Shown piece by piece: positions 4,159 through 7,085 of a DNA stretch of 35,404 nucleotides. The translations under genes were made by a program, and so were the position numbers. A model generated the notes under the pieces. It made no database searches, was not told where the DNA came from, and was given only the letters and a program-made list of their open reading frames with translations. The DNA comes from Bacillota bacterium (GTDB lineage: Bacteria; Bacillota; UBA4882; UBA10575), in the NCBI GenBank assembly GCA_012735135.1, contig JAAYHY010000048.1, forward strand, positions 1 to 35,404, written 5' to 3'. Every line of letters starts with the position of its first letter. Position 1 is the stretch's first letter.

Positions 4159-4188
4159 AACCATCCGGATAGCGGATGGTTTTTTTTT
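4159..4188 (+). terminator. Rho-independent terminator after pheT
   Basis: Perfect AACCATCCG-GATAG-CGGATGGTT followed by T8. Confidence 0.9.
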
Positions 4189-4398
4189 GGCCCGTCTCCG
4201 GCAACCGGCTAACTCCTGAGAATCCACGGTAAAAGCCAACCCCGGATGCTTTTCAGTAAAATCCTCTCTGAAGGTGCTTTTTGTCATTATAATTAGGGTA
4301 AATTAGGGGGAAAAATTTAATATTCGGTAATCTTCGGGATAAAAGAATTATTGGAAAAAGTCGATGATCATAGTGACTCAATTTAGGGGGGCATTGGG

Positions 4399-5031
4399 AT
4401 GGTCTTAAAAAACCTGGCCACGATCTGGGCGGAAGCACTGGCACAAGGGGCAGGCGAGAAGGACTCTTACAAAATAGATTTAGTCCGGTATATGGTGGAA
4501 AGTTTACTCTCCATGCTGCTCTCCCTCTTTTTTATCCTGATCTTTGGACTAATCTTTGGTGTTCTAAAAACAGCCCTTCTCATTACAATCGTAGTTGCCG
4601 TCTTAAAAACTTTTATGGGCGGGTTACACCTGAAGACTCCGCTCCGGTGCGCTCTGGTGGGTGCGGTCATGACCATTCTCCTTAGTTATCTTGCCCGAAT
4701 TTTACCTTTTCACCAGATCCCAAAGCTGGTTCAATTATGGGTCTTCGTCTTTTTAGTTTTTATCGTTTGGAAACAAGCCCCCCTTGAAGCGCAGGGAAAA
4801 CCACTGACGATTGAGCATAAGAAGAGTTTAGCCCGCTATTCCAGACTCCTTATTCTTCTAATTACTCTGATTTGTTGGGGCTGGCCACAAGGCTTCGCTA
4901 TAAATGAACTTTTCTATGGTACGTTTTTTCAAGGATTAAACCTAACTCGACCTTTAGCCCTTGCCTTAGCTACCCTTGATCATGCTTTGGACCGCGCAGC
5001 CGACAAGTTTCAAGGAATTATTCGATTATAA
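4399..5031 (+). CDS. agrB: Accessory gene regulator B-like peptidase (AgrB family)
   Basis: 210 aa multi-TM protein; GGLHLKTPLRC has His and Cys 7 residues apart, as in the AgrB catalytic pair; agrD-like ORF immediately downstream. Confidence 0.9.
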   Translation: MVLKNLATIWAEALAQGAGEKDSYKIDLVRYMVESLLSMLLSLFFILIFGLIFGVLKTALLITIVVAVLKTFMGGLHLKTPLRCALVGAVMTILLSYLARILPFHQIPKLVQLWVFVFLVFIVWKQAPLEAQGKPLTIEHKKSLARYSRLLILLITLICWGWPQGFAINELFYGTFFQGLNLTRPLALALATLDHALDRAADKFQGIIRL

Positions 5032-5051
5032 ATAGAAAGGAGGTTTTGAAA

Positions 5052-5165
5052 GTGAAAAAACGGATTTGTTCGGTCCTTCTGTCGGTACTGGCGATTCTGG
5101 CCAGTTGCAGTCTGTGTTCGGCGTGCTTTTTCATCTGGTATCAGCCGGAAATTCCCCAGAAATAG
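5052..5165 (+). CDS. agrD: AgrD-like cyclic lactone autoinducer peptide precursor (37 aa); absent from supplied ORF track
   Basis: GTG start after AAAGGAGG; MKKRICSVLLSVLAILASCSLCSACFFIWYQPEIPQK: amphipathic leader, core Cys, and YQPEIP tail typical of clostridial AgrD-like peptides. Confidence 0.9.
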   Translation: MKKRICSVLLSVLAILASCSLCSACFFIWYQPEIPQK

Positions 5166-5318
5166 CAACATTGAAGACAAATAGTCCTTAGTCCTTACTC
5201 AATCTGTAGATTATCAAATGATGAAAATCAAAGCCAGGTGAGTAACTAGCATCGGAGGTTTCTTGAAGCAGCTTCGTAAAAAAGAAACTGATTATTCTTA
5301 AGCACACGTATTCTTAAG

Positions 5319-5357
5319 AGACGTATGTTTATATGTTTGACATATAAATATACGTCT
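5319..5357. repeat. 17-bp near-perfect inverted repeat with 5-nt loop between agrD and the agrC-like gene
   Basis: AGACGTATGTTTATATG-TTTGA-CATATAAATATACGTCT (one mismatch). Confidence 0.85.
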
Positions 5358-5407
5358 ATCCTATGCGCTCAATCTTTGAAGTGCTTAAAGGCAGGTGTTA
5401 AGATCCC

Positions 5408-6730
5408 TTGCCAAAAGATGTATTATTGCAGCTCGTCGCAGGGAAGCAACATTATACCTTATTTTTAACGTTTATTGTTTTCATAATAAACTGGGTAGTG
5501 ATGCTCAAACTAGGCCTAATAATAATCCGATGCACAGTAAAAATACAAAAGCTTATTTTCCCTTGGGCTTTACTTGGTGTTATATACAGCCTTATTACCA
5601 AGCAAATTATTTCTGAATTCCTTTATTTTTTTACAACATTACTGGTGATTTTCGTTATATTGCTAATTATATCTAAAAAGGATCCGTTAACCGTTTTCTT
5701 TGGCGCATTAACATCACTACTCTCACCAATCTTTAGTATATTATTATTTGGACAGCCTTTACTCATGATTAATGTTACGCGGGAAATAATGTTAGGGCCA
5801 GAGGGTATAGTAATCGGAAGTATATTAGAAGGTATTGTGCCAGCTTTTTTTCTTGTCATTACGCGTAGTAGTATCCGGTCTGAAGAGGACAAAAATAAAA
5901 CATTCTGTCGCAATGTAATAATTAGTATATTCCTTTTATTTGTTTCGTATTTTTTATGCGCAATCGTTTTTTATTACCTCACTAATTATCGGGACTCAAT
6001 TCTCTGGTATGTTCTAATCAGTGAGGCCATACTGGTCAGCATTACAATTATTGCCTTTTTCCGGCTCAGATCGGTAATTAAAAAAGAGCAACAAAGAAGT
6101 GAAGAAAACCACAGCACCTACCTGTTAAGAACGATCCTCTCCAAACAAAGGGAGTACCGGAATTTTTTCCAAGTGATCCGCGCAATGGCGGAAAGGGAAA
6201 GCAACCAGAATATTGTTGATTATATTGATCACATCTTAATTGATATGTCTTTAATTGAAGAGTCTAATGGCGTCAACCCCATTTTCGCCGCTTTCCAGGT
6301 GGCTGAACAAATCAAAGCCAAAGAAAAAGGGGTTGAAATCTCTACCAAAACAAAATCGGATCTACACCAATTAAGGGAGCCGGTTCAAGTATATGATATT
6401 TTCAAAGACTTACTACAGTTTTTTGTCGATTACGAAGAAAGGGTCTTAGCGGATGAGCATCGTATCAACGTCGAAATTGACGAGACAGATCAGGAATATA
6501 TCTTTAAAATAACCCGCAAGAACGGTAGGGAGGAGTCGGGAACGGATCTTAATCATGTATCTACTCCCCCGGAAGGAGAGCATCGTCTGGAACAGATTGC
6601 GAAACGTATTCGGAAACTACGGGGAAAGATTTTTTTCTTGTATCAAGAGGATAAATTAAGGGGCTGCCTGTTTAGAACCGCCAAGGCCAAACCAAAAGAT
6701 TACCTTTTCCCCTTTAATTTTGGAACCTGA
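5408..6730 (+). CDS. AgrC-like membrane protein with degenerate Spo0B/GHKL-type kinase region
   Basis: 440 aa; multi-TM N-terminus, then KQREYRNFFQVIRAMAERESNQNIVDYIDHI aligning by eye to the Spo0B/AgrC helical hairpin (RHDFxNhLQVI), then a weak HATPase-like region. Start codon (TTG) uncertain. Confidence 0.65.
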   Translation: MPKDVLLQLVAGKQHYTLFLTFIVFIINWVVMLKLGLIIIRCTVKIQKLIFPWALLGVIYSLITKQIISEFLYFFTTLLVIFVILLIISKKDPLTVFFGALTSLLSPIFSILLFGQPLLMINVTREIMLGPEGIVIGSILEGIVPAFFLVITRSSIRSEEDKNKTFCRNVIISIFLLFVSYFLCAIVFYYLTNYRDSILWYVLISEAILVSITIIAFFRLRSVIKKEQQRSEENHSTYLLRTILSKQREYRNFFQVIRAMAERESNQNIVDYIDHILIDMSLIEESNGVNPIFAAFQVAEQIKAKEKGVEISTKTKSDLHQLREPVQVYDIFKDLLQFFVDYEERVLADEHRINVEIDETDQEYIFKITRKNGREESGTDLNHVSTPPEGEHRLEQIAKRIRKLRGKIFFLYQEDKLRGCLFRTAKAKPKDYLFPFNFGT

Positions 6731-6760
6731 CTCCTTCCGAAGAAGGAGTTTACTTTTTTA
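6730..6760 (+). terminator. Rho-independent terminator after the agrC-like gene
   Basis: ACTCCTTC-CGAA-GAAGGAGT followed by a T-rich tract. Confidence 0.75.
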
Positions 6761-6806
6761 TTGTCAAATATATAAAGGATAACATCATCTTAGGTGGTGA
6801 GCTCCG

Positions 6807-7085
6807 GTGACGGCCCACAAAATCGAAGGCAAACCTCTAAACCGTGTAACCATTAAAATCATGGGTGATGAGTATAATGTAGTCGGACCGGAGTCACCAG
6901 AGTACATTGACCGTCTGGTCGAAACCATCGAAGCAAAGATTGACACGATCCAAAAAGCCCATGGTGATGCCAAGTTATCCAAAACTCAGTTGGCCATCTT
7001 AGTTGCCTTACAGATTACGGATGAATTGGAAAAGCTTCGCATAGACCATGAAAATCTGGAGAAATTATTACAAGCAGCCAAATAG
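6807..7085 (+). CDS. zapA: Cell division protein ZapA
   Basis: 92 aa; NRVTIKIMGDEYNVVGPESPEYIDRLVETIEAKI matches ZapA. Confidence 0.93.
   Translation: MTAHKIEGKPLNRVTIKIMGDEYNVVGPESPEYIDRLVETIEAKIDTIQKAHGDAKLSKTQLAILVALQITDELEKLRIDHENLEKLLQAAK

Follow-up and report, generated by a model that had tools for sequence, protein, structure and literature searches.

The receptors that serve the orphan agrBD loci of several clostridia are an open question, and that of C. difficile AgrD1 has explicitly been called unidentified (PMC10602386). An agrBD pair lies on the stretch of 35,404 nucleotides analysed here (the window), from a Bacillota bacterium. Taken alone the pair is ordinary, and it is physically and evolutionarily tied to a gene, here named X, for an AgrC-derived protein that is very probably not a kinase. 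The features of the locus are collected in Table 1.

Table 1. Features of the agrB-agrD-X locus, with positions in the window.
Feature	Positions	Strand	Basis
Intrinsic terminator between pheT and agrB (9 bp stem, then T run)	4159-4181	+	Terminator scan
SigD (flagellar sigma)-like promoter, TAAA-N17-TCGATGA	4340-4367	+	Degenerate consensus match
agrB, predicted membrane endopeptidase/cyclase	4399-5031	+	PF04647 match, conserved His77/Cys84
Tract with one mismatch to sister genome G006 (2,284 bp)	4636-6919		Comparison of colinear region
Shine-Dalgarno sequence of agrD, AGGAGG	5038-5043	+	Sequence
agrD, 37-aa precursor	5052-5165	+	TIGR04223 above cut-off; kept in 10/10 related loci
Predicted ring CFFIW, from Cys25	5124-5138	+	Within agrD
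Tail YQPEIPQK	5139-5162	+	Within agrD
Hairpin between agrD and X, AGACGTATGTTTATATG-TTTGA-CATATAAATATACGTCT	5319-5357	+	Compensatory changes, variable loop length
Gene X, membrane sensor half and degenerate AgrC/Spo0B-type kinase half	5408-6730	+	Homology, AlphaFold model, conservation
Intrinsic terminator directly 3' of X, closing the agrB-agrD-X unit	6729-6750	+	Terminator scan

The agrBD pair and its predicted peptide

An earlier note, made from the sequence alone, had pointed to an AgrB-like gene with His and Cys spaced as in the known catalytic pair, and the family search bore this out. The 210-aa product of agrB (ATG start) matched the Pfam AgrB family PF04647 with 103.4 bits (cut-off 23, E = 1.2e-29), and its motif GGLHLKTPLRC contains His77 (codon 4627-4629) and Cys84 (codon 4648-4650), the same numbering as in the catalytic pair of S. 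aureus AgrB (PMC10482373); both residues were unchanged in the 11 homologues aligned. The source genome has one copy of agrB. No AgrB was found in a search of plasmid records, and the AgrB profile gave no meaningful match to PDB sequences.

The agrD gene is a previously unannotated GTG ORF of 37 codons that begins exactly 20 nt past the agrB stop, 8 nt after the AGGAGG. Its identification as agrD, also proposed earlier, was confirmed by its position, by a match to the NCBIfam family of AgrD cyclic lactone autoinducer peptides (TIGR04223; 27.3 bits, cut-off 19, E = 2.9e-6), which places both genes above the curated cut-offs, and by the presence of an AgrD-like ORF after agrB in 10/10 related loci (L032-L041), indicating that it is not a chance ORF. 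Neither of the outcomes that would have spoken against the module, a missing family match or a lack of conservation, was observed. In these loci the ORF follows agrB directly or overlaps its end, except in L040, where it lies 229 nt downstream. Because of the Shine-Dalgarno spacing and the homologue starts, located at the aligned GTG or at ATG, this start was preferred over the TTG at 5046 given by the ORF lister.

The AgrD sequences of 11 genomes followed the pattern C-x3-[FWY]-YQP[ER]xP[QE]K, into which the suggested core CFFIW(Y) and tail QPEIPQK fit. The cores were CFFIW, CWILY, CWIIY, CLILF, CWFIW, CLLLF, CLIWF, CLFVW and CFIWY, with YQP next in every case. Cys25 and YQP were invariant (11/11 loci), whereas Cys19 and Cys22, which had been named as alternative cyclisation sites, were missing in several homologues (e.g. 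ATSTMSMAC, ATATMSMAC); the latter two were therefore rejected as ring residues, and Cys25 is the likely site of cyclisation. Since the Tyr after the aromatic fifth core residue is invariant, it seems to belong to the recognition tail, and this favours a five-residue ring, most likely CFFIW, the six-residue ring CFFIWY being possible. Five residues is the commonest ring size among known AIPs, and C. acetobutylicum provides an example with six (PMC4916163). A second agrBD pair with a different AgrD (core CAFIGYQPNLP) was observed in G012 (L045:4065-4816).

Intrinsic terminators follow pheT and X; agrB thus begins a separate unit, and agrB-agrD-X was read as a single one. In each of the ten related loci (seven other genus members, G012, G010 and G011) agrBD is followed by X, and the genus and G012 share the order pheT-agrB-agrD-X-zapA, as far as the contigs reach. 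In G010 and G011 the agrB-agrD-X triad is present, with neither pheT nor zapA found next to it, while G008 and G013, which belong to the same family, have neither agrB nor X. The genomes of the close relatives were assembled from metagenomes and carry the label Bacillota or Hydrogenispora sp. The agrBD module described earlier is thus a real pair, but the picture was incomplete, as it left out an abnormal likely receptor gene located 242 bp downstream.

Gene X, a degenerate AgrC/Spo0B-type kinase

X encodes a protein of 440 aa from a TTG start. The X of the window had no Pfam or NCBIfam match at cut-off level, and the X profile had no meaningful match to PDB sequences. The sensor half (approximately residues 1 to 215) has six predicted TM segments (hydrophobic, residues 22-216) that are helical in the AlphaFold model. 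This model, of moderate confidence (mean pLDDT 67, pTM 0.40), has a membrane half built of helices, a long helix that continues as a helical hairpin, and a C-domain of alpha/beta type; its best PDB matches were two structures of the kinase domain of S. aureus AgrC, 6e52 and 6e95 (E = 4.5e-6), suggesting a DHp-CA fold. The X profile retrieved intact kinases of the same class (RHDFRNQLQVI, GNIIRNAIE and GLGL types, E of about 1e-25 to 4e-31), and HATPase_c_5 was matched by one of the ten X proteins.

Motif loss was read from an ungapped alignment with intact kinases. The equivalent of the phospho-His in the HDxxN motif is Arg248 (codon 6149-6151), an Arg in all 10 aligned X copies, and the next Asp is replaced by Glu (HD to RE); the GNLLxNAIE-type motif of the N box is replaced by KDLLQFFVD, and in every copy the N-box Asn and the G box (GxGL) are lost. 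X was rejected as an ordinary kinase for lack of the phospho-His and of the N and G boxes, and its autophosphorylation is very unlikely because neither the phospho-His nor the ATP site remains. X is very probably unable to act as a kinase; judged by its sequence, it is a predicted pseudo-histidine kinase descended from the AgrC/Spo0B type, and is not to be classed as an AgrC kinase.

X resembles Spo0B in its helical domain (SPOB_a was matched by 6/10 X proteins, best 5e-7) and in a kinase-like C domain without ATP-binding motifs; Spo0B, however, retains a phosphorylatable His, and X has none. DivL of Caulobacter is a pseudo-histidine kinase that acts by binding a response regulator (PMC4211667) and, like X, it is kinase-derived with the phospho-His replaced. 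Unlike X, DivL keeps the N, G1, F and G2 boxes and has PAS sensors, whereas X has lost its N and G boxes and carries a membrane domain of the peptide-receptor type.

In the tree, X, the orphan Arg-type proteins L086 and L087 and the His-keeping L090 and L073 grouped at 99/99, apart from the intact kinases, with long branches that make the inner order unsure. The L086:1-1298 (G014) and L087:5935-7233 (G015) products are orphan membrane pseudokinases with the motif YREFRN and no agrB on the contig stretch examined, indicating that proteins of the Arg type also occur outside agr loci. The L090:4719-5642 (G010) and L073:1258-2043 (G027) products are relatives of the X C-half that keep the His (RHEY) and have lost the N box, and are possibly Spo0B-like phosphotransferases; a Crp/Fnr-like gene comes after the G010 copy. 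As these two retain the His yet have lost the N box, a stepwise conversion of the kinase is plausible. In G025, two tandem AgrC-type kinases were observed after agrB (L089:5691-7472), one without the aligned His (SQHYDFQTQL) and with the N box kept, the other with the His and a weakened N box.

X as the candidate receptor of the AgrD peptide

In the source genome X is present in one copy and no AgrC-type kinase other than X was found; SPOB_a proteins were absent at E<=0.1, and the sole match to HATPase_c_5 was a GHKL kinase (L047) adjoining an AraC-type regulator. No LytTR (AgrA-type) regulator was found in the source genome or in seven of the eight genus members. With pheT distances controlled, the distances of X residues 1-205 tracked those of the AgrD core (partial Mantel r = 0.52, exact permutation p = 0.016, in a small sample of n = 7 genomes), whereas the distances of AgrB (p = 0.27) and of the X C-half (p = 0.20) showed no tracking of the core in the same seven genomes. 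Between G007 and G005, for instance, whose AgrD cores differ, the distance was 0.11 for pheT, 0.29 for the X C-half and 0.55 for the X sensor half. In view of its linkage to and joint absence with agrBD, the lack of any other AgrC-type kinase or LytTR protein, and the covariation of its sensor half with the AgrD core, the best interpretation of X is that of the cognate receptor of the AgrD peptide, a reading supported by correlation.

The locus resembles S. aureus agrBDCA in the His77/Cys84 of AgrB, in an adjoining AgrD with a conserved ring Cys, and in a linked polytopic receptor, AgrC being the closest solved structure to the X model. It differs in that X is without the phosphorylated His and the ATP site, and in that an AgrA/LytTR gene was found neither in the locus nor in the source genome.

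As to the peptide chemistry and the binding partner and output of X, we infer only the following course. AgrB would cut the 37-aa AgrD ahead of the YQPEIPQK tail and form a thiolactone ring that starts at Cys25, in all likelihood CFFIW; the exported cyclic peptide would be sensed by X, the six-TM product of the next gene. To signal, X would change the way in which a partner in the cytoplasm (another kinase, or a response regulator, for example Spo0A) is bound by its conserved helical ex-H-box region. Kinases dock response regulators through the H-box, and no stretch of X is more conserved than the former H-box (seven invariant residues within 241-260), as expected for a retained docking surface. 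Spo0A was present in 29/29 genomes examined, including genomes without X, and agrBD affects sporulation in clostridia (PMC10602386), making Spo0A a reasonable first candidate for the partner. A phyletic link of agrB and X to SigD or Spo0A was rejected, since a FliA-type sigma factor and Spo0A also occur in relatives without agrB and X.

It is probable that agrB-agrD-X is self-contained, with X sensing the AgrD peptide as a pseudokinase and signalling through partner binding. The broader proposal of an agr system whose receptor is a conserved pseudo-histidine kinase, with a relay that involves neither receptor autophosphorylation nor AgrA, is more tentative, its chances falling slightly short of even.

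A rather unlikely alternative is that this is an ordinary orphan agrBD whose true receptor is an intact kinase encoded elsewhere, X being auxiliary (in immunity, transport or modulation of AgrB). It draws on the known occurrence of agrBD without agrCA, as in C. difficile agr1 (agrB1D1), which like the present locus lacks AgrA and whose mutants have been tied to sporulation and SigD-dependent genes (PMC8534292), on the receptor there being still unidentified (PMC10602386), and on unrelated sensor kinases in the source genome, such as the GHKL kinase. No linked receptor-like gene is reported for agr1, whereas a conserved AgrC-derived pseudokinase is linked here. Against the alternative, X is the only AgrC-like protein found, the source genome having no SPOB_a match, no LytTR protein and the L047 kinase as its sole HATPase_c_5 match, and the AgrD core co-varies with the sensor half of X and not with AgrB.

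It is quite unlikely that X still takes part in a phosphorelay by way of an unusual residue or partner, as a heterodimer with an active kinase or as a response-regulator phosphatase. The strongest constraint in X does fall on the ex-H-box, some clostridial Spo0A-linked phosphotransfer proteins are phosphatases (PMC11210211), and the related L090 and L073 branch has a His but no N box; against this, the HD to RE change and the altered nucleotide site occur in every X copy. The loss of catalytic motifs and a degenerate SigD-like promoter in the source genome could also mark X as a decaying former kinase in a unit on its way out, but this is highly improbable and largely refuted by the selection analysis, given intact ORFs, a dN/dS of X of about 0.15-0.18, well below 1, in the two closest pairs, which denotes a maintained gene under purifying selection and led to the rejection of X as a pseudogene, a replacement Arg invariant across 10 loci and a conserved hairpin upstream of X.

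If X is the cognate receptor, the loss of the parts needed for kinase action means that the host may sense its quorum peptide without the usual phosphate relay. X offers a specific receptor candidate open to experiment, and peptide quorum sensing may here proceed without phosphorylation; receptors of this kind would escape searches for kinase motifs, and X-like proteins could be the missing receptors at other orphan agrBD loci. No AgrC-type pseudokinase linked to agrBD was described in the literature searched, many subscription papers lying outside its scope.

The shared tract and the control elements

The window and the sister genome G006 are colinear over 35 kb, with about 80-88% identity outside the near-identical tract, which runs from just before the codon of the AgrB active-site Cys, through agrD and X, into the start of zapA. 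The natural reading is a recent exchange of an agrB(3')-agrD-X block that would comprise signal and receptor; a chimeric assembly is possible, given that G006, at least, was assembled from a metagenome. A variable specificity block spanning agrB, agrD and the receptor gene is likewise a feature of staphylococcal agr loci (PMC10482373).

A SigD-like site lies at the same place upstream of agrB in L033-L041, mostly 26-34 nt before the start codon, and is near-consensus in several relatives (TAAA/TGAA-N16/17-CCGATAT). In the window, the match to TAAA-N15/16-GCCGATAT upstream of agrB was weak (9/12), equalled by 16% of shuffles. The consensus is valid for the source genome, since exact sites precede its own flgB and a flagellin gene. 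SigD control of agrB is a lead, and the site may point to a connection of the peptide system with motility.

The hairpin between agrD and X is kept in G012 and eight genus members, with two-sided changes in 7/15 pairs and pairing in 87.6% of cells. Its covariation score exceeded those of all 500 shuffles, and slid controls scored far lower, in a test that leans towards structure because the arms were chosen by the analyst. At the gathering threshold Rfam gave no match near the hairpin, the only matches in the window being a T-box leader (336-572) upstream of pheST and the 3' part of a tRNA gene (1-65). An intrinsic terminator was rejected, as the hairpin lacks a following T run and is absent from the results of the terminator scan. 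Action as RNA is preferred over a DNA operator of fixed spacing, because the spacing of the half-sites varies with loop length between genomes, a DNA element being possible. The hairpin could set the ratio of X to agrBD expression.
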